64,000 bases of DNA, taken from positions 2,976,001 through 3,040,000 of the forward strand of contig NZ_RKSM01000001.1 in NCBI RefSeq assembly GCF_008729015.1, written 5' to 3'. Position numbers and translations under genes: made by a program. Under the pieces are notes generated by a model. That model saw nothing but the letters and a program-made list of their open reading frames with translations. It did no database searches and was not told the origin of the DNA. How positions within the stretch are numbered: position 1 is the stretch's first letter; every line of letters begins with the position of its first letter. The stretch is from Haloarcula sp. CBA1129 (lineage in GTDB: Archaea; Halobacteriota; Halobacteria; Halobacteriales; Haloarculaceae). Of the stretch, positions 17,873 through 32,226 are shown in pieces.

Positions 17873-17958
17873 ACGCTGCCGTTTGACCGCTGTCAGAAAG
17901 AAACTGTTGTTACCCGGCGGTGCTACCGATCTAGTGGACGGATGTCACATACTCTCGG

Positions 17959-18049: not shown

Positions 18050-20155
18050 ATGCCAAACTGGACGAATGGGCGTCGTCACGGCGCGTGGACGGCTGTGAGC
18101 GACTGGGTCCCGACGACGTGTATGCGGTGTGCCGTCGGCTGTGGACACATGCACCAGGGGGCTGACGAGGGGTACGGCATCGACGCCGCCCGCGGCGATG
18201 CCGCCCATCCGGTCAGTCAGGGACTGGCATGCGCTCGCGGGCTCCGGGAGAGCAAGGCCCCCGACGGGGAGTGGCTCACGCGGCCGATGGTCCGCAGCGA
18301 TGGTGAACTCCGCCAGACCCAGTGGGACGTGGCGCTGGCCCGTGCCGTCGAGGGACTGCAGGCCGTCCACGAACGGGACCCCGACTCCGTTGCCGTGCTG
18401 GGGAGCGGCCAGCAGACAAACGAGGCGGCCTACGCGCTGGGAAAGGTCGCCCGCGGCGGCTTCGGCACGCGGAACTACGACGCCAACACGACGCTGTGCA
18501 TGGCGAGTGCCGTCACCGCCTACTATCAGGCCTTCGGCAGCGACGCGCCGCCGTGTACCTACGCCGACATCAGCGACGCTGACCGCCACGTCGTCTGGGG
18601 GGCGAACCCGGCGGTCGCCCATCCCGTGATGTTCCGCTGGATTCAACAATCCGCCGACGAGGAGGGCGTCGAAATCATCGTCGTCGATCCTGTCCGCTCG
18701 GAGACCGCGGAGAACTCCGAGCACCACGTCGCACCTGACCCCGGGAAGGACCTCGTACTGGCCCGAGCCGTACTGGCCCGCATCGTCGAGACGGGGCGAG
18801 TCGACCGCGAGTTCGTCGACGAGGCGACCGACGGGTTTGAGGACCTGCTTGCCTCGCTCCCGGACGCCGACGACGCGGCCGCTGCGGCCGGTGTCGAGCT
18901 GGCCGACGTGGACCTGCTGGCCGACGCGATGGACCAGCAGGCGCTCATCTACTGGGGCATGGGCATCAATCAGCACGTTCAGGGGACCGAGACCGCCCGG
19001 GCGCTTATCGACCTGACGCTGGCGACGGGGAACCTCCGGCCCGGCGGCGGCCCGTTCTCGCTGACCGGTCAGGCCAACTCGATGGGGACCCGAATCTGCT
19101 CCTCGAAGGGGTCTTGGCCCGGTCAGCGGGCCTTCGAGGACCCGGACCACCGTCGACTCGTCGCGGACCACTGGGATATTCCGGTCGACCGCTTGCCCGA
19201 CGACACCGGTCCCGGTCCGGTCGGGATGCTCGAAGAGGGCCCCGAGGCCGTCTGGGCCGTCGCCACAAATCCCGTCGCCGGGATGCCTGAGGCCGATTCG
19301 GTCCGCGAGACGCTCGAAGACGCCTTCGTCGTCGTGCAAGACGCCTTCCACACCGAAACGACGGAAATCGCCGACGTGGTCCTGCCCGCCGCGACGTGGG
19401 GGGAGAGCGACGGGACGACGACGAACATGGAGCGGACCATCTCCCGGGTCCGGTCGGCGACCGACGTGCCAAGCGGCGTCAGGCAGGACATCGACATTAT
19501 CGCCACCATCGGCTCGCGGCTGTTCCCCGGCCTGTTCGAGAGCACGTCCCCGGACCCGTCGGACGTGTTCGATGAGTTCACCACCCTCACCGAAGGGACG
19601 GTCGCCGACTGTTCGGGCATCACCTACGAGCGCCTTGACGACAGCCACGCCGTCAGGTGGCCCGCGCCCGACGAGGAGAGCGCTGGCGGCTACCGATACT
19701 ACGACGACGAATCGTGGTCGTTCCCCACTGCCTCCGGCCGCGCGCAGTTCTCGACCGGCCGTCAGGGGTCGCTTCCGGAACCGACCGACGACGACTACCC
19801 GCTGACGCTGACCACCGCCCGCGAGGCTGACGGGTACAACACCGGCGTCCGGTCCCGCGGCGGCGAGGCCGGGACGCTGGTAGCCCGCATCCACCCCAAG
19901 ACGATTGCGGAACACAGCGGGCTCGTCACCGACGAGCAGCTGACCGTCGAGACCCGCCGCGGCTCCGCGATAGCCGAAATCGACCGCGACGAGGGTGTCC
20001 CCCACGGGATGGTCTGGCTGCCGATTCACCATCCGGCGACGAACCGACTGACGCTTTCGGACCGAGACCCCCAGTCCGACGAGCCGAACTTCAAGCAGTG
20101 TGCCGCCCGCCTCGTCGCCGCAGAGGCCGAACTGCCGCCGGCGACGGCTGACTGA
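18050..20155 (+). CDS. nasA: Assimilatory nitrate reductase, molybdopterin subunit
   Basis: A 701-residue Mo-bis-MGD oxidoreductase that reduces nitrate to nitrite in the cytoplasm. An N-terminal [4Fe-4S] site is formed by Cys24, Cys27, Cys31 and Cys61 (CMRCAVGC ... CARG). Other family blocks are YDANTTLCMASAV, NPAVAHPVMFRW, YWGMGINQHVQGT and ATNPVAGMPEADSV, and the C-terminal molybdopterin-guanine-dinucleotide-binding barrel includes GYNTGVRSRGGEAG. No signal peptide is seen, as expected for the assimilatory form. Alternatives to ATG 18050 are GTG 17996 and GTG 18095; all keep the cofactor sites. narK and nirA follow. Confidence 0.9.
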   Translation: MPNWTNGRRHGAWTAVSDWVPTTCMRCAVGCGHMHQGADEGYGIDAARGDAAHPVSQGLACARGLRESKAPDGEWLTRPMVRSDGELRQTQWDVALARAVEGLQAVHERDPDSVAVLGSGQQTNEAAYALGKVARGGFGTRNYDANTTLCMASAVTAYYQAFGSDAPPCTYADISDADRHVVWGANPAVAHPVMFRWIQQSADEEGVEIIVVDPVRSETAENSEHHVAPDPGKDLVLARAVLARIVETGRVDREFVDEATDGFEDLLASLPDADDAAAAAGVELADVDLLADAMDQQALIYWGMGINQHVQGTETARALIDLTLATGNLRPGGGPFSLTGQANSMGTRICSSKGSWPGQRAFEDPDHRRLVADHWDIPVDRLPDDTGPGPVGMLEEGPEAVWAVATNPVAGMPEADSVRETLEDAFVVVQDAFHTETTEIADVVLPAATWGESDGTTTNMERTISRVRSATDVPSGVRQDIDIIATIGSRLFPGLFESTSPDPSDVFDEFTTLTEGTVADCSGITYERLDDSHAVRWPAPDEESAGGYRYYDDESWSFPTASGRAQFSTGRQGSLPEPTDDDYPLTLTTAREADGYNTGVRSRGGEAGTLVARIHPKTIAEHSGLVTDEQLTVETRRGSAIAEIDRDEGVPHGMVWLPIHHPATNRLTLSDRDPQSDEPNFKQCAARLVAAEAELPPATAD

Positions 20156-20475: not shown

Positions 20476-21798
20476 ATGGGACTGATCAAGATGACGAAAT
20501 ATCGGACGCTGCTGCTGGCGACTATCGGGTTCAATTTCTCGTTTCTCATCTGGTTCTCCTTTGCGCCCTTTACCGGCCCGATGGCCGAGGAGTTCCAACT
20601 CTCGACCGCTGAGATCGGTATCCTCGCCAGTTCGGCCATCTGGATGGCCCCGTTCGGCCGGATGCTCACCGGCTGGCTCTCCGATAAGTTCGGTGCGCCG
20701 GCTATCTTCGCTATCGTGTTGGCGTACGTCGGCGTGTTCTCGATAGCGAGCGCCTTCGCACAGAACTACTCCGTGTTCTTCGTACTGCGGCTTATCGTGG
20801 CGACGGCCGGCATCACGTTCGTCATCGGCATCCAACACGTCGCTGAGTGGTTCGAAGAGGAGAACCTCGGCTTGGCGGAGGGCATCTACGCCGGCGTCGG
20901 GAACGCCGGGGCCGCCGGCGGCGCGCTCATCCTCCCTCGCGTGTTCGGGAGTGGCTGGAACGGGCCGCTGTTCTCGACCAACTGGCGAGCCGCGTTCTTC
21001 TACACCGGCATCGTTTCCATTCTCCTCGCTATCGCCTACTACACGCTCGGCGAGGCCGCAAAGAGCGAGGCAAAACGCCAAGCGACCAAGGAAAACACCA
21101 CCTTCAAGGGCTGGCTACACACGGCTACCCGATACGGCACCGTCGTCCTCGCCGCCGCGTACATCATGTCGTTCGGCCTCGAACTGTCGATGAACGGGTG
21201 GCTCGCCACCTACTACCGCGAAGCGTTCAATCAGGACAACCTCGTCATCGCGAGCACCTTCGCGGCGACGTTCTCGATTGCTGCAGGATTGCTCCGGCCG
21301 TTTGGCGGCTACGGCAGCGACCTGCTGGCCCGCAAAGAGAAGAACATCCTGCCGTTCTTCAAGGGGCAGTACCGCGAACAGTGGACGTTCCTCGGACTCT
21401 GTTTCATCGTGGTGATGATGTTCGCCATGACGCTGGCCGGCCTCTCCGGTGTCCTGCTGAACGCTGTCGTCATCGGCTTCCTTGTTGGCACGGGCTGTGC
21501 TTGGGCCGAGGGCGCTATCTTCGCGCAGGTGCCCGCGATGTTCCCGAACGACTCGGGCTCGGTTGCGGGCGTCGTCGGCGGTGTCGGAACCGTCGGCGGC
21601 ATCGTCTACCCGCTGTTTTACTCCGCGCCGTGGCTGGCGAACCTCCACATCGGATACTCCGTGACCGCCCTCACGATGCTCCCCATCGTCGCCCTGTCAG
21701 CGTGGGTGTTCCAGCCCGAGATCGCGAAAATCGCTAACACGGCCGGGTTCGTCGGAAGCACGCAGGAAGGCACCACCGTCGCCTCCGGCGACGACTGA
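20476..21798 (+). CDS. narK: Nitrate/nitrite transporter (MFS, NarK type)
   Basis: A 440-residue major facilitator with about 12 membrane segments. Segment 1 ([24 protein letters not shown]) and the loop [18 protein letters not shown] are typical of NarK transporters, as are [16 protein letters not shown] and the paired [17 protein letters not shown] glycine-rich block (nitrate signature) near residue 360. It should import nitrate for NasA or exchange nitrite. The start [14 protein letters not shown] may in fact be the inner ATG five codons later. It lies between nasA and nirA. Confidence 0.93.
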
Positions 21799-22270
21799 TA
21801 CTGTTTGCTGTACCTATTCTACGATATTTGCCACCTCGCGTGGCGACATTCGTTATAGACGGACAGCCAACAGTATGACGCCTCTAGACTTCGACCGGCG
21901 CTTCTCTCTTTCGTGCAGACGCCCAGACTCGACCAGTGTCCGACTGTTGTGCTGCCTGTCGCGTCCTCCTTCGGTTCAGCTCGCGCGCGGCTGACACCCC
22001 AGTTTGACGGGATCACAGTCTGGTCGGACGAATCGTGCTCGGGAGCGTCCCCAGCGTACAGTTTCAGATCTCGACCGGCCAATCGGTTGCCGTCCTGCGG
22101 TTTTACTCATGTCTCCGATGCGGTGTATAACCTGTTTAAACACCTCTCAGATGGTATAGTTCTGGACGGCTGTTTTCGAACACCCTATCGATATTTATTT
22201 CTTTAACGATTAGGGTTATAGGGAATCAAACTGAGTTATTAGACGTGAATTAGCGGACGTTCAAATAACT
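21799..22270. other. Intergenic region narK-nirA
   Basis: About 470 nt without a convincing gene; short frames on both strands have shadow-like composition. It holds a 13-nt repeat copy (21824-21836), the palindrome TGTTTAAACA at 22133-22142 nested in GGTGT/ACACC arms (22122-22126 and 22140-22144), and an A/T-rich stretch (CGATATTTATTTCTTTAACG, 22189-22208, then GGGTTATAGGG) that is likely the nirA promoter area. Confidence 0.5.
21824..21836 (+). repeat. 13-nt repeat copy 2 (ATATTTGCCACCT)
   Basis: Exact copy of 20290-20302, located 26 nt after the narK stop. May be a regulatory site shared by the nitrate genes. Confidence 0.5.
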
Positions 22271-22327
22271 ATGAGTGAGAAAACAGCACATCTATCAAGA
22301 ATCGTGGGGGCTGAAAATGGCACATAA
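22271..22327 (+). CDS. Possible 18-aa leader peptide overlapping the nirA start
   Basis: ATG 22271 opens a frame encoding MSEKTAHLSRIVGAENGT and ending at TAA 22325-22327, 8 nt inside nirA. Its stop overlaps the nirA start region by 11 nt in total, which would suit translational coupling or attenuation. It may equally be chance, since the frame is very short; there is no clear ribosome-binding site before it. Confidence 0.3.
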   Translation: MSEKTAHLSRIVGAENGT

Positions 22328-24083
22328 GAAAGAAGAGTACAAGGAGGAGCTGTACGGCGATGAGGTACGAGAGAAGTTAGAGGAGTTTGCCGAGAAAGGC
22401 TGGGAGTCCATTCCCGAGGACGAACGCGAGAAGTGGTTCTCGCGGTTCAAGTTCTGGGGCGTGTTCCACCACCGCGGCGGGCAGGAGTCGTATTTCATGA
22501 TGCGGCTGACCAACTGCGGCGGCATCTTGGAACCGGACCAGCTCCGAGCCATCGGCGAGGTCGCACGCGACTACGCGAAGGGACCGGCCGAGAACCCCGA
22601 GTTCGGGAACGGCTGGATCGACCTCACGACGCGGCAGTCCATCCAACTCCATTGGCTCAAGCTCGAGGACATCCCCGAGATATGGGAGAAACTCGAAGCC
22701 GTCGGCGTCTCCTCGCGCTCGGCGGGCGGGGATACGATGCGCAACATCTCCGGCTGTCCGGTCGCCGGCAAGGCCGAGGAGTTCGTCGAGTCCCGGCCGA
22801 TTCTGGACGAGATTCAGGAGACCATCCGCGACGACAACGAACTGGCCAATATGCCCCGGAAGTTCAACATCTCGGTGACGGGGTGCAAGCAGGGGTGTGC
22901 CCAAGACAGCATCAACGACATCGGGCTGGAGCCAGCCCACAAATTTATTGACGGCGAGGAAATCGAGGGGTTCAACGTCCGCGTCGGCGGCGGCCTCGGC
23001 GGCCGCGAGCCGCGCGAAGCCCGTCCACTCGACCTGTTCATCCGGCCCGAACACGCCGTCGAGACGGTCCGGGCCTTCGTCGAGTACTACCACGAGGCGG
23101 GCAACCGGACGAACCGCTCGAAAAACCGCGCTCGGTTCTTCGTCGACGAGCACGGCACCGACGCCATCCGCGAGGAACTCGACAAGCGTCTTGATTTCGA
23201 GCTGGAAACCGCCGGCACCGATTTCCGTGGGGAGTACACGTACAACGCCGGCAAGCGCACAGAGTATGGTGCCCACGACCACGTCGGCGTCTACGACCAG
23301 AAAGACGACAAGAACTACGTCGGGCTCTCGGTGCCCGTGGGCCGACTTTCCGCTGAGGATACCATCGAACTGGCTGACCTCGCCGACGCCTACGGCTCCG
23401 GCGAGGTGCGCCTGACCCGTCGACAGAACCCGATCATCATGGGCGTCTCCGACGGAAACCTCTCGCACCTGCTCAACGAGCCGCTGCTGGAGAAGCACTC
23501 GCCGGAGCCGAACCCGTTCGTTCAGGGTGCGATGGCCTGCACCGGGACGGAGTTCTGCTCGCTGGCGCTCACCGAGACCAAGGCCCGGATGGCCCGGCTG
23601 CTGCGCTGGCTCGGTGACAACGTCGACGTGCCCGACGACGTGGACCGCATCAAGATGCACTTCTCGGGCTGTACGGCCGACTGCGGGCAGGCGATGACGG
23701 CCGACATCGGCCTGCAGGGGATGCGAGCCCGAAAGGACGGCCAGATGGTCGAAGCCGTCGACGTGGGCGTCGGCGGCGGCATCGGCGAGGACCCGTCGTT
23801 CATCGAGTGGGTCCGCCAGCGTGTCCCCGCCGACGAAGCGCCCGGCATGATAAAGAACATCGTCGAGGCCTACGCGGCGCTCCGCTCGGAGGGCCAGACG
23901 TTCCGGGAATGGGTCGACGCCACTGGCCACGAGACCATCGTCGAACTGGCCGAGCCCCACGAGGTCGAGGGGTACACCGACCCCTGTCTGGCAGACGGCA
24001 AGCAGTCGTGGTATCCCTTCGACGACGGTGACAGCCCGGCCCCGACCGACGCCGAAGGCCAGCCGATTTCGGCGGACGACTGA
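22317..24083 (+). CDS. nirA: Ferredoxin-nitrite reductase (siroheme, Fe-S)
   Basis: A 588-residue nitrite/sulfite reductase family enzyme that reduces nitrite to ammonium with ferredoxin. Two ferredoxin-like half domains are seen (GGQESYFMMRLTNCGGIL and YVGLSVPVGRL). The siroheme/[4Fe-4S] ligands are Cys408, Cys414, Cys452 and Cys456 (CTGTEFC ... CTADC). NMPRKFNISVTGCKQGC matches the substrate-binding block. ATG 22317 has a G-rich tract (GTGGGGG) before it. The gene is called nasD in some haloarchaea. With nasA and narK it completes nitrate assimilation. Confidence 0.95.
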   Translation: MAHKKEEYKEELYGDEVREKLEEFAEKGWESIPEDEREKWFSRFKFWGVFHHRGGQESYFMMRLTNCGGILEPDQLRAIGEVARDYAKGPAENPEFGNGWIDLTTRQSIQLHWLKLEDIPEIWEKLEAVGVSSRSAGGDTMRNISGCPVAGKAEEFVESRPILDEIQETIRDDNELANMPRKFNISVTGCKQGCAQDSINDIGLEPAHKFIDGEEIEGFNVRVGGGLGGREPREARPLDLFIRPEHAVETVRAFVEYYHEAGNRTNRSKNRARFFVDEHGTDAIREELDKRLDFELETAGTDFRGEYTYNAGKRTEYGAHDHVGVYDQKDDKNYVGLSVPVGRLSAEDTIELADLADAYGSGEVRLTRRQNPIIMGVSDGNLSHLLNEPLLEKHSPEPNPFVQGAMACTGTEFCSLALTETKARMARLLRWLGDNVDVPDDVDRIKMHFSGCTADCGQAMTADIGLQGMRARKDGQMVEAVDVGVGGGIGEDPSFIEWVRQRVPADEAPGMIKNIVEAYAALRSEGQTFREWVDATGHETIVELAEPHEVEGYTDPCLADGKQSWYPFDDGDSPAPTDAEGQPISADD

Positions 24084-24345: not shown

Positions 24346-25701
24346 CTACTCGCCGTACCCTCCGAGGTCACACTCTGTGGCTGGCCCCCCGTCACAGTCG
24401 TAGCCGACCGCTTTCGTGACGCCGAGTAGGTCATAGAACCGACCGAGGGACTGCTCGGACTCCGACAGCCCTTCGACCACCGGCACGCCACGCTGGGCCT
24501 GATGGTCACAGCGCCGCATCGTCTGGCTGCCCAACCCGACCGAGTAGTCGTGGTCTTCTAGTTCCCGGATAACTGCCGGCGGATAGAAGGTGCCGGCTCG
24601 CTCGACGGCCGCAGCGTACTGGAGCGTCTGTGCGTAGGCCAGATGGGCCACGCCGGAGGGCCGCTGTGCGTTCCCGTATTCGGCGGTGAAGGCGTTCTTG
24701 AACTCGTTCGAGAGGCCCGACGAGACGCTGGTGTCCCACGCCACTGTCCCGACGACGCCGTCGAGCGCCTTCGCGGCGTTCTGTGCCACGATGCGGTTGT
24801 ACAGCGGCACCACAATCCCCACCTCGTCCGGGAGGATTTCCTGAGCCGTTGTCAGCGAGTTCGCCGCGTCGAGTCCGTAGTGGTCGAGGAAGACGACCTC
24901 CGCACCGGCGTCCCGGGCCTGTTTCAGCGGCTCCTCGTAGTCCGTCGTCCCGAGACGCGTCGGGATGCTCGTGAGTTCGACCCAGCCACTCGATGTGAAG
25001 AAGTCGCGGATCGACGACTCCATCGTCTTGCCCCAGTTGTAGTCCGCGTAGATCTGGACGTACTGGGCTTCCCGGCCGAACCGTTCCTTGAGCACCGGAA
25101 GCAGAGCCTGTGCGGTCATGTACGCGTTGAACATCTCCCGGAAGCTGTAGCGGACACAGTCAGTCCCCGTCGTGTCGTTCGAGTGGGTCAGACAGCACAT
25201 GTACGGGACCTTCTGGGCCTGTGCGACTTCCTGCTGGGCGATGGCGACGGAACTGGACGAGCCGCCGGAGAACATGACGACGTCGTCCTGCTCGATCATC
25301 TGCTCGGCGTTAGCCGTCGCAACCTCCGGTTTCGTCTCCGTGTCCCCGGTGACGTACTCGACGGTCTTTCCGAGGACGCCATCGCCGCTGAGTACGTCAA
25401 AGGAGCGCTGTCCGACCCAGCCGCCGCCTTCATTGAGGTGCGTGACAGCGAGCTCATACCCCCGGAGTTCGTCGCGCCCTTCGGCGGCGTAGGTCCCGGA
25501 CTGTGGCACGTTGAAGCCGAGCGTGACCGCATCGCCGTCGACTGGATAGTTCCCGAGCGGTGGATGCTCTGGCGTGTTTTCGGCCGTCGAACCTCCGTCT
25601 TGGCATCCTGCCAGCCCGGCGAGCCCCGCGGTACCGACCCCACCGGCAATCCGTAGCAAGGACCGCCTGTTAACTGCCTCTCCCCCTCTTTCCAATCGCA
25701 T
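24346..25701 (-). CDS. ABC transporter substrate-binding lipoprotein (urea/amino-acid type)
   Basis: A 451-residue periplasmic-binding protein of type I fold (Peripla_BP_5/6, the urea, short-chain amide and branched amino-acid class). The N-terminus has a Tat motif (NRRSLLRIAGG) and lipobox LAGC, so it is exported folded and lipid-anchored. VTLGFNVPQSGTYA opens the ligand domain; YVQIYADYNWGKTMESS is typical. I chose ATG 25701 because a TATA element on this strand (25724-25735) lies about 27 nt before it. No permease or ATPase genes are nearby, so its transporter is elsewhere. The context suggests a nitrogen compound. Confidence 0.88.
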   Translation of the reverse strand: MRLERGGEAVNRRSLLRIAGGVGTAGLAGLAGCQDGGSTAENTPEHPPLGNYPVDGDAVTLGFNVPQSGTYAAEGRDELRGYELAVTHLNEGGGWVGQRSFDVLSGDGVLGKTVEYVTGDTETKPEVATANAEQMIEQDDVVMFSGGSSSSVAIAQQEVAQAQKVPYMCCLTHSNDTTGTDCVRYSFREMFNAYMTAQALLPVLKERFGREAQYVQIYADYNWGKTMESSIRDFFTSSGWVELTSIPTRLGTTDYEEPLKQARDAGAEVVFLDHYGLDAANSLTTAQEILPDEVGIVVPLYNRIVAQNAAKALDGVVGTVAWDTSVSSGLSNEFKNAFTAEYGNAQRPSGVAHLAYAQTLQYAAAVERAGTFYPPAVIRELEDHDYSVGLGSQTMRRCDHQAQRGVPVVEGLSESEQSLGRFYDLLGVTKAVGYDCDGGPATECDLGGYGE

Positions 25702-25723
25702 AACAGCTTTTTTGATTGTAGAC

Positions 25724-25735
25724 ATATATAATACT
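25724..25735 (-). promoter_or_regulatory. TATA element of the substrate-binding lipoprotein
   Basis: On the minus strand the run AGTATTATATATG lies 23-34 nt before ATG 25701, the distance for a leaderless transcript. An upstream in-frame ATG at 25725 lies inside this element and is therefore unlikely to be used. Confidence 0.55.
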
Positions 25736-25873: not shown

Positions 25874-26518
25874 TCAGTCAAGAATGTCGCTGGCTTCGGT
25901 GTCGACCGCCACGTCCGTGTCGAGGTCGATATCCTGAATAAGCGCAACGAGGTCCTCCAGTTCGGGGAACGTGTACACGGTCATTCCGAGGTCGCCGTCG
26001 TCGACGGTGATCTGCGAGTCGACGACGAACACCAGATCCGAGTCCGGCCAGCCCCCCATCTTGTCGATGATGCCGTCGGCCGGGCCGAACACGAAGTTCG
26101 GCGTCCCCATGTCGATGGTCGTATTGAGGACGTTGGCCCAGCCGTCGATGAACGCAGAGGTCATGATGTTGCCGATCTCCTGCATCGCCGACCGTTCCAT
26201 ATCGGAGAACCCCTCGCCCTCGCTTGGCTCACCCATTCCACCCATCATTGCGCTGGCCATCTGCTTGCTGTCGGCCGGTTCGAGCAGAAACAGGACGTAG
26301 CCATACGGGGGTTCGTTCAGTTCGACGTAGATGCCGACGCTCTTGTCGTCGCCGATGTGTGTTTTGACGTCCGCAATGTCGAGAAAATTGATCTGTGAGG
26401 TCCGAACTGTCGCGTCGAGCCCGGTCAACTGACCGAGGTTCTCCGCGACCGTCCCAGACCCCTCCTTTGCCATCTGATTGAAAAGGTCCAGCTTCCGCAC
26501 GTCCACTTTCAGGCCCAT
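25874..26518 (-). CDS. CheC-like phosphatase-family protein
   Basis: A 214-residue protein of the CheC/CheX/FliY superfamily, which dephosphorylates CheY-P in archaeal and bacterial taxis. The segment DMERSAMQEIGNIMTSAFIDGW (about residues 106-127) carries the Glu-x2-Asn active pair in QEIGN, followed by a Pro in GTPNFVF. The first half keeps the fold (TVAENLGQLTG) with only a partial second site. There is no other che gene nearby; the neighbours are nitrogen genes, so it may act on a different receiver protein. It lies downstream of lrp on the same strand, with a 135-nt gap. Confidence 0.85.
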   Translation of the reverse strand: MGLKVDVRKLDLFNQMAKEGSGTVAENLGQLTGLDATVRTSQINFLDIADVKTHIGDDKSVGIYVELNEPPYGYVLFLLEPADSKQMASAMMGGMGEPSEGEGFSDMERSAMQEIGNIMTSAFIDGWANVLNTTIDMGTPNFVFGPADGIIDKMGGWPDSDLVFVVDSQITVDDGDLGMTVYTFPELEDLVALIQDIDLDTDVAVDTEASDILD

Positions 26519-26653: not shown

Positions 26654-27112
26654 TCAGGCGTCAGTCCCGTCGACCGGGAACTGCTCGTGTTCGCACACCG
26701 TATTCAGTACGACCGACGTCGAGGCAGATCGGATATCCTCGTCGGTCAGCAGCGTCTTTATCCGCTCGTTCATCGACTGCGTGTCGGTGAATTTCCCGAC
26801 GGCCACGATGTCGTGGTCGCCAGTCACCTCATAGACTGCGACCATCTCGCGTCGATCCCGTAACTGGTCCACCACCCGTCCGAGCCCGTCGCCCTCGACG
26901 GAGAGCTGGAACACGGCGGTCACGTCGTATCCCAGCGCCCCGTAGTCGATGTCGACGGTGTATTCGTCGATCACACCGGTCGCCTCCAGATCGTCCATTC
27001 GGCGCGACACCGTAGTCGCCGCGATGCCGGTCGCGGCGGCGACGTCACGGGCGCTCGCTCGGCCGTCCTGGAGCAGTGCGTTCACTACCTGTCTGTCGGT
27101 ATCATCGACCAT
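26654..27112 (-). CDS. Lrp/AsnC family transcriptional regulator
   Basis: A 152-residue regulator: an N-terminal winged helix (DRQVVNALLQDGRASARDVAAATGIAATTVSRRMDDLE, residues 5-42) and a C-terminal RAM ligand domain with YEVTGDHDIVAVGKF. It starts 9 nt after the glnK stop, so it is encoded in the amt-glnK operon and is likely to respond to an amino acid or glutamine signal and to control nitrogen genes; that target is inferred. Length and domain order are normal. Confidence 0.92.
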   Translation of the reverse strand: MVDDTDRQVVNALLQDGRASARDVAAATGIAATTVSRRMDDLEATGVIDEYTVDIDYGALGYDVTAVFQLSVEGDGLGRVVDQLRDRREMVAVYEVTGDHDIVAVGKFTDTQSMNERIKTLLTDEDIRSASTSVVLNTVCEHEQFPVDGTDA

Positions 27113-27121
27113 CTCGTCCGC

Positions 27122-27487
27122 TCAGACTGCCTCTGGGCCTTCTTTGCCGGTTCGGACCTGATAGGCGTTGTCCACGGGGAGGACGAATATCTTGCCGTCG
27201 CCTTTCTCACCGGTGTGGGCCCCGTCGGCGATGGCGTCGACGACATCCTCTGCGGGGATGTCCGCGACCACCGTCTCGACTTTGACCTTCTGGTGCAGGT
27301 CGACGACGTACTCCTCGCCGCGCCACTGCCCCTTCTTGGCGGGCTGTGAGCCGCGGCCGGAGACGTTCGTCACTGTCAGCGAGGGTGCGCCGACCTCAGC
27401 GAGCGCTTTCTTCACGTCGCCGAGTTTGTCCGGTCGAACCATTGCGACTACCATCTTGATTTCAGAGTCGTCGGTTTCGTCAGTCAT
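27122..27487 (-). CDS. glnK: PII nitrogen regulatory protein (GlnK type)
   Basis: A 121-residue PII signal protein, which binds ATP/ADP and 2-oxoglutarate and blocks the ammonium channel when nitrogen is plentiful. [20 protein letters not shown] is the first strand and helix. The T-loop contains [17 protein letters not shown] with Tyr60 at the place of the uridylylated Tyr51 of bacterial [22 protein letters not shown] is the B-loop/C-loop signature. ATG 27487 overlaps the amt stop by 8 nt, so translation is coupled to its membrane partner. Confidence 0.95.
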
Positions 27488-28808
27488 CTTTGGAACCTCC
27501 ATCAGTACGCATGCTCGGACTCACTTTACCACCATCGGCGACAACGCTTTCGCCACCACCGAACTCGGGGTAGGTCTCGACGCCGTGTTCGCTGACGTCC
27601 AGCCCTTCCTGCTCGTGTTCGGGCGTGACCCGAGCCTGTCCGGCTGCCTTGAGCGCGTACCAGACAACCCCGGTCGCGACAATCGTCCAGCCCGCGATGG
27701 CCACGACGCCGATCAGCTGTGCGATGAAGGCGTTAACGACTGACCCAACCGTGCCGGACGTGGCGACGAACGGGAACAGCAGCGTGCCGAGCACGCCGGC
27801 GCTTCCGTGGACCGGGAAGACGGCACAGACGTCGTCGATTTTCATCCGGTTCTCGATGAAGCTGAACACGATAGGTAGCTGACCGCCTGCGAGGCCGCCG
27901 ACGACGATTGCGCCCCACCACGTCGTGGTGTCGGGGATCGCCGTGATGCCGACCAGCCCGGCGAGCAGCCCGTTTGCCACGTACAGGGTGTCGACCTTCC
28001 CGGTTTTCAGCCACGCGACCAGTCCGGCACCCATCGCACCGCAGGCCATCGCAATGGTCGTCGTCATCGCGACACGACCGACCGTCGCGAACGCACCGAG
28101 GGCGAGCGACCCGTCCTCGACGACGAAGACAGTCGCCGCCGTCCCGACGTTGAAGCCGTACCAGCCGAACGCGAGGATGAGCGTTCCCAGCACGGCGAAG
28201 GTCAGCGAGTGGCCCGGAATGACGTTTGCGGAGCCGTCCTCGTTGTACCGGCCCATGCGTGGACCGAGGACGTATGCTGCCGTGAGGCCCGCGATGCCGC
28301 CCATGCCGTGGACGATCATCCCGCCGGCGAAGTCGTGGAAGGCTTCACCGCCGAAGCTGATGTACGCGCCGGCCCACGTGATTCCGGTGACAACGGGATA
28401 GATGACCGCTGCCAGCAGGAAGGTGTACGTGATGTACGCGCGGAGCTTGGCCCGACCGGCGACCGCGCCGGAAACAATGGTCGCTGCCGTCATCGCGAAG
28501 ACGGCACCGAACAGCCAGCCGACGTAGTCGTTTGCGGCCCCTGCGCCGAACGCGGGCGAGAAGCCACTTCCGCCGACTAGAGCACTGATCCCCGACCCGA
28601 TCAGGAAGAACACCGTTACGCCGACCGACCAAGTCAGGAGGTTCTTCGTCAGCTGGTTCGCGACGTTCTTCGAACGCACCTGACCCGCCTCAAGCATGGC
28701 GAAGCCTGCGTGCATGAAGAAGATCAGGAACGATACCACCAGTACCCACAGCAAGTTAACCCCCTCTGCGAGTACGCTCGGATCTACCTGTAGTGCAGTG
28801 TAGCTCAT
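27480..28808 (-). CDS. amt: Ammonium transporter
   Basis: A 442-residue Amt/Mep/Rh channel with 11 predicted membrane segments. The pore histidines are in [16 protein letters not shown] and [28 protein letters not shown] near the start is the family signature. It has an AGGTGA ribosome-binding site about 8 nt before the ATG (28816-28821) and therefore a leadered mRNA; a possible TATA element (CTTATGTAG, minus strand) lies near 28926. The C-terminal tail of about 45 residues is the PII contact region. First gene of the amt-glnK-lrp operon. Confidence 0.96.
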
Positions 28809-29130
28809 TTCTAGTTCACCTGTTTCGTTTTGTTATCGACTGCCGTCTGAATGTCCAACTTTCCCCCGTTCTGGCTCAACTTCTTCAACTCTTTCACGAG
28901 AAAGGCTCTGGTAACAACACTACATAAGGTTTGCCTTTATGAATACGGAAATTGGAGGGGATATGGTAGACGACCGTCCAGATTACAGTATGATATTATG
29001 GATATAAGGTTGTTCTCCGTCAAGAAAGTCCGTATATGCACACTGAAATTTTGGACGTTTGTCGACCCCAGTTTCGGCCGCAAGGGCCCAAATAGGCCGT
29101 TTTTGCTTGCGCGCGCTCCTGTCTGGCGGG
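28809..29130. other. Divergent intergenic region amt / transducer-like gene
   Basis: 464 nt separate the two divergent operons (28809-29272). Short frames here have shadow-like or mixed composition. A/T-rich patches at 28920-28945 and 28983-29045 could hold promoters for both sides. A 7-bp inverted repeat and TATA element for the right-hand operon are listed separately. Confidence 0.5.
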
Positions 29131-29189
29131 TGTTGCCAGCGGCAACAGGGTTATGCCTCGCGAACACAGATTCGAATTCAGTATAAATG
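29131..29189 (+). promoter_or_regulatory. Operator-like inverted repeat and TATA of the transducer/kinase operon
   Basis: TGTTGCC at 29131-29137 and GGCAACA at 29141-29147 form a perfect 7-3-7 inverted repeat. It is followed 33 nt later by a TATA-like GTATAAATG (29181-29189). The next gene starts at 29273 with a GGAGG site (29254-29258), so its mRNA would have a leader of about 60 nt. Confidence 0.45.
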
Positions 29190-29272
29190 TCCGGAGAACA
29201 GTGGGGAGACGTGGCACAATGTCTCGATAAACTGTACAAATCGAACCTATATTGGAGGGTTCATAGCTGATT

Positions 29273-30883
29273 ATGGCTTCGGATCACTATCCCTCCGTTC
29301 CGGACCAGTCGACGGCCGTAACAGAAGAGCGGGCAGTCGCAAACGCACAGGGCGCACTGGATGTTGTGCAGGCGGCGTCGGAAACCGTCGGCGAGCAACT
29401 CGCGGCGATTGACGACCGCGCGGCGGCACAGGCGACTGACGCACAGCAGATCGCCGACGATGTCTCGTCGCTTTCGGCCACAATCGAGGAGATCGCTGCG
29501 ACCGCGACCGAGGTCAGCGAGCAGAGCCAGCGGGCAACGGACGCGGCAAACGACGGGCGCGAGGCCGCATCCGATGCTATCGAGTCGATGGACGAGGTCC
29601 GCGAACTGGGGCAGGCGGTCGCCGCGGAGGTGGCCGACCTGCAGGACCGGGTCGACCGCATCGCTGATGCACTGGCCGGCATCGACCGCATCGCCGACCA
29701 GACGAATATGCTCGCGCTGAACGCCTCGATAGAGGCGGCGCGAGCGAGCGACACCACCGACACGGACGGGTTCGCTGTCGTTGCAGATGAAATAAAGGGG
29801 CTCGCAGAGGAGTCCCAGCAGCAGGCTGAGGAAATCGAAACGACGCTGGCTGCGGTTCGAGACGCCACAGACGACACCGTCGCACAGCTCAACGAGGCCA
29901 TCGACGGCATCGACACCGGGGCCGAGCAGGTCACCACGGCGATGGCTCGGCTCGATGACGTGGCAGACACCGTCGCGGAGACGGCCGAGGGTATCGCGTC
30001 CGTCTCGGCGGCGACCGACGAGCAGGCGACGACGAGCGAAGCGGTCGCCCAGCGGTGTGAGACGGTTTCGGACCGCGCCGCCGCCATCGAAGACGACCTC
30101 TCGGAGATACGTGCCGCCCGCTCCGAGCAGACCGCGATGCTGGACGAGATTGACGACGTACTTGCCGCTGCCGAGACCGACCGGCAGGACCGACTGGCGG
30201 ACGCCCCGACAGTCTCTACCGGAATCGATGGCCTCGACGACCTCTGTGGCGGCGGGCTTGTCATGGGCGGTCAGGCCGTCTTCCGGTACACTGACGGGAC
30301 GCAGATCGATGGGGCCGTGGCGCAACTGTGCGCGACGGCTGTCGCCGCCGGCCGGGCGGTCTCGCTGACGCCGCCTCCCTCACTGGACCGGTCGACGCTG
30401 GCCGCCGCGTTCGCGGCGACCGACCGCTCGCTAGATGATGCACTCGACGGCGATGCCCTGTTCATCCTCGACCCGTTCGGGCACTGGGACGCCCGGTACA
30501 ACGTGTTCGACCTCGAACGGACCTCGCTCGCTGCCGCCAACGAGACGACGGCTACCAGACGGGACGCCCCGCTGGTCATCGTCGGGAACATTCAGGGCGA
30601 AATACGGATGATGGGCGAACAGGAAGCCAGAGAAGCCCGATACGAAAACGACGACGGCGTCTTCGAGCCCCACGACACGGTGGTCAACGTCATCAACGAC
30701 GACGCGGTCCCGGAAACGCTCGGGGCCTTTTACTCGGGCGCTGCCGATCAGGAACTCACGCTGACACGGATCGACGGCCGCGAGCACCTGACGCTCACGG
30801 CCTCGCCGCGTGGCACCGTCGGCGAGAAACAGCCGGTATCACATCTGTCGAGCCCACCCTTCCTCCGGATCCGAGACAACTGA
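29273..30883 (+). CDS. Soluble transducer-like protein fused to KaiC-like domain
   Basis: A 536-residue protein without membrane segments. Residues 30-300 form a long coiled coil of the methyl-accepting chemotaxis type; the hairpin tip IADQTNMLALNASIEAARA lies at about 139-157, followed by GFAVVADEIKGLAEES. From about residue 312 comes a RecA/KaiC-like domain (STGIDGLDDLCGGGL) whose P-loop is lost: the position of GxGKT reads TDGTQID. Such proteins are called HTR-like in haloarchaea. ATG 29273 has GGAGG 14 nt before it. The stop overlaps the next start by one base (TGATG), so it is coupled to the histidine kinase. Confidence 0.85.
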   Translation: MASDHYPSVPDQSTAVTEERAVANAQGALDVVQAASETVGEQLAAIDDRAAAQATDAQQIADDVSSLSATIEEIAATATEVSEQSQRATDAANDGREAASDAIESMDEVRELGQAVAAEVADLQDRVDRIADALAGIDRIADQTNMLALNASIEAARASDTTDTDGFAVVADEIKGLAEESQQQAEEIETTLAAVRDATDDTVAQLNEAIDGIDTGAEQVTTAMARLDDVADTVAETAEGIASVSAATDEQATTSEAVAQRCETVSDRAAAIEDDLSEIRAARSEQTAMLDEIDDVLAAAETDRQDRLADAPTVSTGIDGLDDLCGGGLVMGGQAVFRYTDGTQIDGAVAQLCATAVAAGRAVSLTPPPSLDRSTLAAAFAATDRSLDDALDGDALFILDPFGHWDARYNVFDLERTSLAAANETTATRRDAPLVIVGNIQGEIRMMGEQEAREARYENDDGVFEPHDTVVNVINDDAVPETLGAFYSGAADQELTLTRIDGREHLTLTASPRGTVGEKQPVSHLSSPPFLRIRDN

Positions 30884-32226
30884 TGTTCGGCATCGACGAC
30901 GCTGGTCGGTTCACGTTCGCGACAGAGGAGTTCGCCGCAGTGCTCGACCGGACGCCTGCCGAACTTGTCGGGACGCCAGTCGAGGTGGTGGTGGCGGCTG
31001 AGGACCGCGAGACGCTGGCTACGGCGAGACAGGCCGTCAGCAGCGCGTCGGACCGGACCGAGAGCTGTCAGGTGAGGTTCCCGCAAAGCGACCTCGCCGG
31101 TCCGGTGACGGTCGAACTCACGACGGCAACTGACGAGTCCATCGTCGGCTCGCTCTGCCGAGCGACCGAGGTGTCCGACCCGTTCCAGTACCTGTTCGAT
31201 CTCATTCAGGACGCGGTCGTCGGCTTCGAAATCGTCAACTTCGTTCCAATCGTCCGAACGGTCAATCCCGCGTTCGTCGAAACCTTCGGCTACGACCGGG
31301 AGGAGATTGTCGGCGAACCGCTCAACGACTACATCGTCCCCGGCGACCGCGTCGAAGAAGCGGTCGACTACGACCAGCGGACGGCCTCGGGCGAAGTCAA
31401 CTACGCTGTTGTCTCCCGGAAGACGGCTGACGGCTGCCGCGAGTTCATCTACCGCGGCGTCCCGTACGACACGACCGACGGCCGTCGTTGCGGGTTCGCG
31501 ATGTACACGGATGTGACGGACAGCCGGCGGCAAAAGCGGCGACTCCGGGTTCTCCACCGGGTCCTGCGGCACAATCTCCGGAACGAGCTCTCCGTTGTAT
31601 TCGGCATGTCGGAATACGTCCGTGCCCACGCAGCCGACTCGTCCGTCTCGCTGGCGGCGTCTCGCGCCCTCGACGCGGCTGACCGTCTCGCCGCCGTCAG
31701 CGAAAAGGCCCGCAACGTCGAAACCGCGCTCGATGGAGAAGCCGACCAGTCGGTCGACGCGGCGGCGCTGGCTCGGTCCGTCGCCGACAGTTACCGCCCC
31801 GACACACCGGTCGAAACGGCGCTTCCAAGACAACTCCCCGTCTCCGGCGGGACGGCGGTCTACGACGCGCTCGACAACCTCGTCGAGAACGCGGTCAGAC
31901 ACACACCTGATGGTACGACCGTCCGAATCACGGCCGAGCGGGCCGGCGGAGACGCGTTTGTCCGCGTTCTCGACGACGGCCCCGGCATCCCGGCCGTCGA
32001 ACGGACCGTCGTGTTCGACGACGAAGACATCACCAACCTCCAGCACGGTAGCGGCCTCGGCATCTGGCTCGCACGGTGGGTTGCCGAGGCGGCCGGCGGC
32101 GGCATCGAGTACGACCGCGCCGACGGGTGGACGACCGTCTCAGTCAGGCTTCCGCTCACTGATGCAGATGACGTACTCACGCTAGCCGACACCGCGGAAT
32201 CCGAGTCTGAACCGACGCCAAAGTGA
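30883..32226 (+). CDS. PAS-domain sensor histidine kinase
   Basis: A 447-residue soluble kinase. Residues 1-90 and 100-215 look like two PAS-type sensor domains (the second has NPAFVETFGYDREEIVGEPL). The phosphoacceptor is His230 in HRVLRHNLRNEL, a form common in haloarchaeal kinases. The ATPase domain has the N box LDNLVENAVRHTPDG, the G1 box DDGPGIP and the G2 box GSGLGIWLARW. No receiver domain is attached and no response regulator is adjacent. It is translated with the transducer-like protein (1-nt overlap), implying a joint signalling unit. Confidence 0.92.
   Translation: MFGIDDAGRFTFATEEFAAVLDRTPAELVGTPVEVVVAAEDRETLATARQAVSSASDRTESCQVRFPQSDLAGPVTVELTTATDESIVGSLCRATEVSDPFQYLFDLIQDAVVGFEIVNFVPIVRTVNPAFVETFGYDREEIVGEPLNDYIVPGDRVEEAVDYDQRTASGEVNYAVVSRKTADGCREFIYRGVPYDTTDGRRCGFAMYTDVTDSRRQKRRLRVLHRVLRHNLRNELSVVFGMSEYVRAHAADSSVSLAASRALDAADRLAAVSEKARNVETALDGEADQSVDAAALARSVADSYRPDTPVETALPRQLPVSGGTAVYDALDNLVENAVRHTPDGTTVRITAERAGGDAFVRVLDDGPGIPAVERTVVFDDEDITNLQHGSGLGIWLARWVAEAAGGGIEYDRADGWTTVSVRLPLTDADDVLTLADTAESESEPTPK

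Follow-up and report, generated by a model that had tools for sequence, protein, structure and literature searches.

A soluble haloarchaeal chemoreceptor with a KaiC-fold domain of inactivated ATPase site, encoded next to a PAS histidine kinase in Haloarcula sp. CBA1129

We analysed a stretch of 64,000 nucleotides from the main replicon of Haloarcula sp. CBA1129 (C1 2976001-3040000; the whole stretch is called the window, and positions are those of the window). The gene under study encodes a soluble chemoreceptor that combines the signalling hairpin of a methyl-accepting chemotaxis protein (MCP) with an inactive KaiC domain (iKaiC), and is followed by a gene for a histidine kinase. A first-pass annotation of the window, made from the DNA letters, had named these two genes and several neighbours; open reading frames and Pfam/NCBIfam searches recovered all of them at the positions it gave. 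The receptor and its kinase comprise the following features.

29273..30883, + strand: soluble chemoreceptor-iKaiC fusion of 536 amino acids, with an MCP signalling hairpin and a C-terminal inactive KaiC domain
29309..30196, + strand: antiparallel coiled-coil hairpin, residues 13-308 (helices 13-158 and 165-308), from the full-length AlphaFold2 (AF2) model and Pfam MCPsignal
29693..29782, + strand: hairpin tip, residues 141-170, the CheA/CheW-contact region with a two-residue turn insertion, from the tip alignment
30206..30880, + strand: iKaiC domain, residues 312-536, a KaiC/RecA fold that lacks Walker A, catalytic Glu and Walker B, from profile, AF2 and alignment
30883..32226, + strand: PAS-PAS histidine kinase with conserved H-box, N and G boxes, the start of which overlaps the stop of the MCP gene (TGATG)

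The MCP signalling domain of the receptor was matched by Pfam PF00015 with 119 bits (MCPsignal, residues 83-266, E 2.5e-34). No other sensor domain was recognised in the Pfam search, and the protein has no transmembrane segment. In the full-length AF2 model, two helices of about 145 residues each build the hairpin, and the iKaiC domain starts at residue 312, at the tip-distal base. The tip (QTNMLALNASIEAAR...GFAVVADEIK) is the same as in the other Htrs of this genome apart from two extra residues in the turn, an insertion that is also carried by the near relatives of the receptor. The intact CheA/CheW-contact tip reported by the first-pass annotation for this soluble transducer-like protein was therefore confirmed. 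The CheA/CheW-contact residues were invariant in an alignment of 14 sequences, in which the pair E72-E73, at what would by sequence be a methylation-like position, was nearly invariant. One branch of the MCP-iKaiC family, in Natrialbaceae (L063, L067 and L072), carries the tip SIQAAQA or SIQAAKA in place of SIEAARA, and CheA control may differ in this branch.

The C-terminal RecA/KaiC domain lacks GxGKT, as the same annotation had noted, and the positions of the catalytic Glu and Walker B were additionally lost in all aligned homologues. Aligned with the active first domains of haloarchaeal KaiC proteins, GGPGTGKST is replaced by RYTDGTQ, TEQ by TPPP and FDS by VGN. A profile built from 26 homologues matched KaiC sequences in the Protein Data Bank (PDB) with an E value of 9.7e-6. 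The AF2 model of the domain (pLDDT 91.9) matched structures of the RecA/KaiC superfamily in the PDB, with a Z score of 21.1 to 2dr3 (210 residues, 2.9 Å) and of about 20 to KaiC, and its top match in Foldseek was a chain of the KaiC CI-SasA complex. Hence, the domain has a KaiC fold and an inactivated ATPase site and is part of a signalling protein, which is the definition of iKaiC. Pfam and NCBIfam offered no family name for it, and Pfam KaiC, MEDS and DUF835 gave no match above the cut-off for members of the iKaiC family; MEDS (PF14417) weakly matched three of the 26 members (best E 0.008), such that a distant relationship is possible. The 26 sequences share 29 invariant columns, which implies that selection maintains the domain even though, judged by sequence, it has no catalytic activity. 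What was once the Walker B strand is, together with its surroundings, dense in conserved polar residues, which suggests a retained binding surface. That the nucleotide site has been lost is an argument against a simple binding of ATP in the canonical pocket.

We surveyed 391 haloarchaeal genomes for this family, and used 34 loci for counts of neighbouring genes. Matches to iKaiC were found in 82 genomes, of which 45, from 14 genera, had the MCP-iKaiC fusion and 37 had a tandem protein only. These tandem KaiC-like proteins are about 500 amino acids long; their first half matches Pfam KaiC, while the iKaiC profile matches their second half only. The profile gave 110-134 bits for the second halves versus at most 14 bits for the intact first halves, and the reciprocal search agreed. 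The scores imply that the iKaiC part of the fusion is related to the dead half of a tandem KaiC-like ATPase, and sequence comparison clearly points to derivation of the receptor domain from this second, degenerate half. In a phylum sample of 345 genomes, no relatives were found beyond haloarchaea. The inspected matches revealed no further domain architectures, only tandem-KaiC proteins, apparently truncated or decayed copies and weak KaiC-type matches. The receptors of two Halobacteriaceae (L049 and L050; family f2, genus g18) nest with strong support inside the Haloarcula clade, which indicates horizontal transfer; they have no amt-glnK neighbours. In Halovenus carboxidivorans (L056/L090), an in-frame TAG lies within the iKaiC part of the MCP-iKaiC reading frame, owing to either a pseudogene or a sequencing error.

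The TGATG stop-start overlap at 30883 recurs in several relatives and supports the earlier proposal that receptor and PAS kinase are translated together. Residues H230, N336, D364/G366 and G391/G393 of the kinase were conserved in at least 90% of 23 sequences. Its Pfam matches were PAS and HATPase_c only, with no KaiB/SasA-type domain (the KaiB-like thioredoxin fold) among them. A kinase of one sequence cluster was present at 22 of the 34 loci; in Haloarcula, Halosimplex, Halovenus, Halorientalis, Halorhabdus and Haloferax it lies on the same strand directly downstream of the receptor. Often, no other protein in the genome matched the kinase of the window as well as the one at the locus. Furthermore, receptor and kinase were both gone from three Haloarcula genomes (G055, G083 and G336).

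The chemotaxis kinase CheA (PF02895) was found in 45 of the 45 fusion carriers, as compared to 314 of the 391 genomes overall (hypergeometric 2.6e-5). Among the 37 genomes with tandem proteins only, CheA was present in 29 and absent from eight (Fisher P 0.001 versus the carriers; hand count). The presence of CheA in all carriers is the pattern expected of a CheA-dependent receptor, with the tandem proteins serving as a control for the domain itself. Of the earlier suggestion that the protein brings energy or nitrogen state into the taxis array, the input to the array is plausible given this co-occurrence and the intact tip, while the link to nitrogen is unsupported beyond position.

We think it somewhat probable that 29273-30883 encodes a cytosolic receptor that feeds CheA, with the iKaiC domain as its sensor or docking module and the kinase as a partner or second output. 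The iKaiC module would stem from a haloarchaeal tandem KaiC-like ATPase, the dead second half of which was captured and placed at the tip-distal base of the hairpin, the position of HAMP and the membrane in other receptors. There, it would bind a cue from the cell interior, either a small molecule or a partner protein, and its signal would alter the hairpin and thereby modulate CheA, which would be docked at the tip. The PAS kinase would be a dedicated partner, which may read the same complex, like SasA with KaiC, or give a second, transcriptional output. Control of CheA, interaction with the kinase and the internal origin of the ligand are what we infer in this scheme.

Several observations weigh against this interpretation. 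The kinase is absent at 12 of the 34 loci, including those of a divergent subfamily and some others. G367 retains the kinase although the receptor next to it has decayed (L191, C1 ~1787.9 kb). The kinase of the two Halobacteriaceae is divergently oriented and comes from another branch of the kinase tree, so that the pairing was not one simple inheritance and appears to have come about repeatedly. The tip is altered (SIQAAQA) in some members from Natrialbaceae, and the two-residue insertion in the tip may disturb the contact with CheA. Finally, the co-occurrence with CheA is phylogenetically clumped, and at the level of genera its P value is only 0.07.

The decayed receptor at L191 is a remnant of 109 amino acids, left by an in-frame internal deletion of the MCP-iKaiC gene, next to an intact kinase. 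Elsewhere in its genome, G367 also encodes an MCP-iKaiC protein of the other subfamily, the one without a kinase.

The recurrent pairing with the kinase, the stop-start overlap and what looks like a new association with another kinase branch in the Halobacteriaceae and in genus g3 would also fit a protein with no role in taxis, the soluble hairpin of which would serve as a scaffold to control the neighbouring histidine kinase, with a transcriptional two-component output independent of the archaellum. We regard this as unlikely, though the least unlikely of the alternatives, as CheA is present in every carrier and often absent from tandem-only genomes, the contact residues of the tip are invariant and E72/E73 nearly so, and the divergent subfamily keeps the hairpin without the kinase.

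A further alternative concerns the genes on the other side of the receptor. Coordinates and Pfam matches agree with the first-pass annotation in that the receptor-kinase unit is divergent from amt-glnK-lrp, with a CheC gene close by. The following features surround the unit.

27480..28808, − strand: ammonium channel Amt (Pfam), context that is dispensable for the receptor unit
27122..27502, − strand: GlnK/PII (Pfam P-II), context
26654..27112, − strand: Lrp regulator (Pfam AsnC/Lrp; haloarchaeal NCBIfam equivalog NF041396, 194 bits, cut-off 190), context
25874..26518, − strand: CheC-like phosphatase (Pfam CheC), context that accompanies amt-glnK-lrp
22317-24083: NirA, part of the nitrogen island
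20476-21798: NarK, part of the nitrogen island
18095-20155: NasA, part of the nitrogen island
28966..29066, no strand: conserved intergenic block, in which inverted copies of TGGACGNNYGTY (28966-28980 and 29052-29066) flank TATTATGGATATAAGG (28994-29009)
28966-28980 (−), 29052-29066 (+) and 22163-22177 (+): copies of TGGACGNNYGTY that precede amt and nirA and are conserved in Haloarcula

These genes form a nitrogen-assimilation island with the order nasA-narK-nirA-SBP-cheC-lrp-glnK-amt (SBP, substrate-binding protein), and the receptor locus is at its end. The SBP gene at 24346-25725 encodes an orphan Tat-lipoprotein of the amide/urea type (PF13458); no ABC permease for it was seen among the adjoining gene calls, and some relatives (L040 and L041) have a second copy. 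Read by eye, the CheC-like protein apparently retains the E-x2-N phosphatase site. The gene for this protein also accompanies lrp-glnK-amt in genus g4, which lacks the MCP (L152, L154 and L158; 25874-28808 in the window), as well as in MCP-less Haloarcula, and CheC was therefore rejected as a part of the MCP unit. Its position near PII and ammonium transport hints at a possible role there.

Amt-GlnK adjoins the receptor at 13 of the 34 loci, and the genera concerned are three, from a single family. The adjacency is seen at each of the ten further Haloarcula loci that were inspected, in two Halosimplex-type genomes, where the receptor adjoins a second copy of Amt, and in Halovenus. The adjacency is missing in about ten other receptor-bearing genera. 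Hence, conservation of the gene order in other haloarchaea, which was proposed as a check on the nitrogen link, extends to Haloarcula, Halosimplex and Halovenus but not to these genera. In Halorhabdus, Halorientalis salina, two Natrialbaceae of one genus and Salinadaptatus, glnA-lrp lies 5-10 kb from the receptor. This proximity is suggestive (P ~3e-4 for three of the 14 genera, a post hoc value, as the pattern was noticed afterwards and the intervening genes differ).

Copies of the TGGACGNNYGTY motif, often in the form TGGACGNTCGTCTAC, lie before amt in further genera of this family as well, including cases where the MCP is not near, and nasA has a similar site upstream, at 17935. Genome-wide there were 26 matches, of which three or four were intergenic and three of these are the ones described here; the pattern was itself built from these sites. 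The motif is a candidate operator of a haloarchaeal nitrogen regulon. Haloarcula genomes G055 and G083, without receptor and kinase, keep amt-glnK-lrp-cheC and the whole intergenic block almost unchanged, which means that the conserved intergenic elements are not receptor-specific. Since the block is kept without the receptor and the motif occurs before amt elsewhere, the block is best assigned to amt. A shared nitrogen operator as proof of co-regulation of the receptor was ruled out on the same grounds.

These data bear on the possibility that the receptor senses the cytosolic nitrogen state (e.g. GlnK or 2-oxoglutarate), steers the cell by the sufficiency of ammonium or nitrate and is part of the amt-glnK-lrp-cheC island. 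Its place in the island of Haloarcula, the Amt-GlnK neighbours in Halosimplex and Halovenus, the nearby glnA-lrp in several other genera and the motif shared by the divergent region and the nirA promoter would fit such nitrogen-taxis. We nevertheless consider it improbable, because two Haloarcula without receptor and kinase retain the island with its whole intergenic block, the Haloarcula-type receptor of the Halobacteriaceae lies away from Amt, and most other genera have no nitrogen neighbours, the proximity to glnA being post hoc with varying genes in between. The link of the receptor to nitrogen is weak, and the adjacency to Amt/GlnK looks like an inherited location. The first-pass annotation had itself based the nitrogen linkage on position only, and this is still its basis.

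Six chains make up both the hexamer of KaiC-type domains and the trimer of dimers of chemoreceptors. In line with this count, with the dead nucleotide site and with the position of iKaiC directly after the base of the bundle in the AF2 model, a ligand-free iKaiC could form a ring or dimer that merely caps receptor dimers and holds them in a membrane-free array, but the dense polar conservation around the former Walker B strand, which suggests a retained binding surface, makes this the least likely alternative.

Returning to the iKaiC domain as sensor or docking module of a CheA-controlling receptor, a bolder version is conceivable, though doubtful: six receptor chains, which make one trimer of dimers, could join their iKaiC domains into a hexameric ring like that of KaiC where the soluble bundle has its base. 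Through such a ring, the KaiC network and the kinase would set CheA activity, and swimming would follow the internal state of the cell. If true, this ring would be a direct physical junction of KaiC-based and Che-based signalling in archaea.

KaiC-like proteins have been proposed as signalling hubs of archaea (Makarova 2017, as cited in PMC5847659 and PMC13286277). The inputs and outputs of these proteins are mostly unknown, and an iKaiC chemoreceptor ties the KaiC network to an output that is easy to measure, the reversals of swimming cells. Genetics exists for studying the receptor in Haloarcula hispanica and Haloferax. Our literature search, mainly of titles and abstracts, found no description of a KaiC-fused chemoreceptor; an earlier mention in Makarova 2017 (mBio) is possible.

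The receptor resembles the cytoplasmic (class V) chemoreceptors of archaea, of the soluble Htr/Car type, in that it has no transmembrane segment, an MCP hairpin and an Htr-type tip. A survey of archaeal chemoreceptors described cytoplasmic receptors with a potential C-terminal sensor domain, some of unknown kind (PMC9680633). The sensor domains named there are Cache, 4HB, PAS, protoglobin and unknown domains, and KaiC is not mentioned in its text; here, in contrast, the sensor would be iKaiC, which puts a name on one of the unidentified C-terminal domains. PMC5847659 describes iKaiC signalling domains in archaeal response regulators (iKaiC-REC, REC-DUF835 and MEDS-REC). Like these iKaiC, MEDS and DUF835 domains, the domain of the receptor has lost the ATPase residues from a KaiC fold within an archaeal signalling protein, but its partner is an MCP hairpin rather than REC, and it is nearest to the second domains of tandem KaiC proteins. 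With the haloarchaeal tandem KaiC-like ATPases it shares a second, degenerate domain that is homologous over its full length, whereas the MCP hairpin replaces the active first domain, and genomes with tandem proteins do not always have CheA. Finally, the putative partnership of a KaiC-fold domain with a histidine kinase recalls the KaiC-SasA output of the clock, from which it differs in the PAS domains of the kinase and in having a dead KaiC domain.

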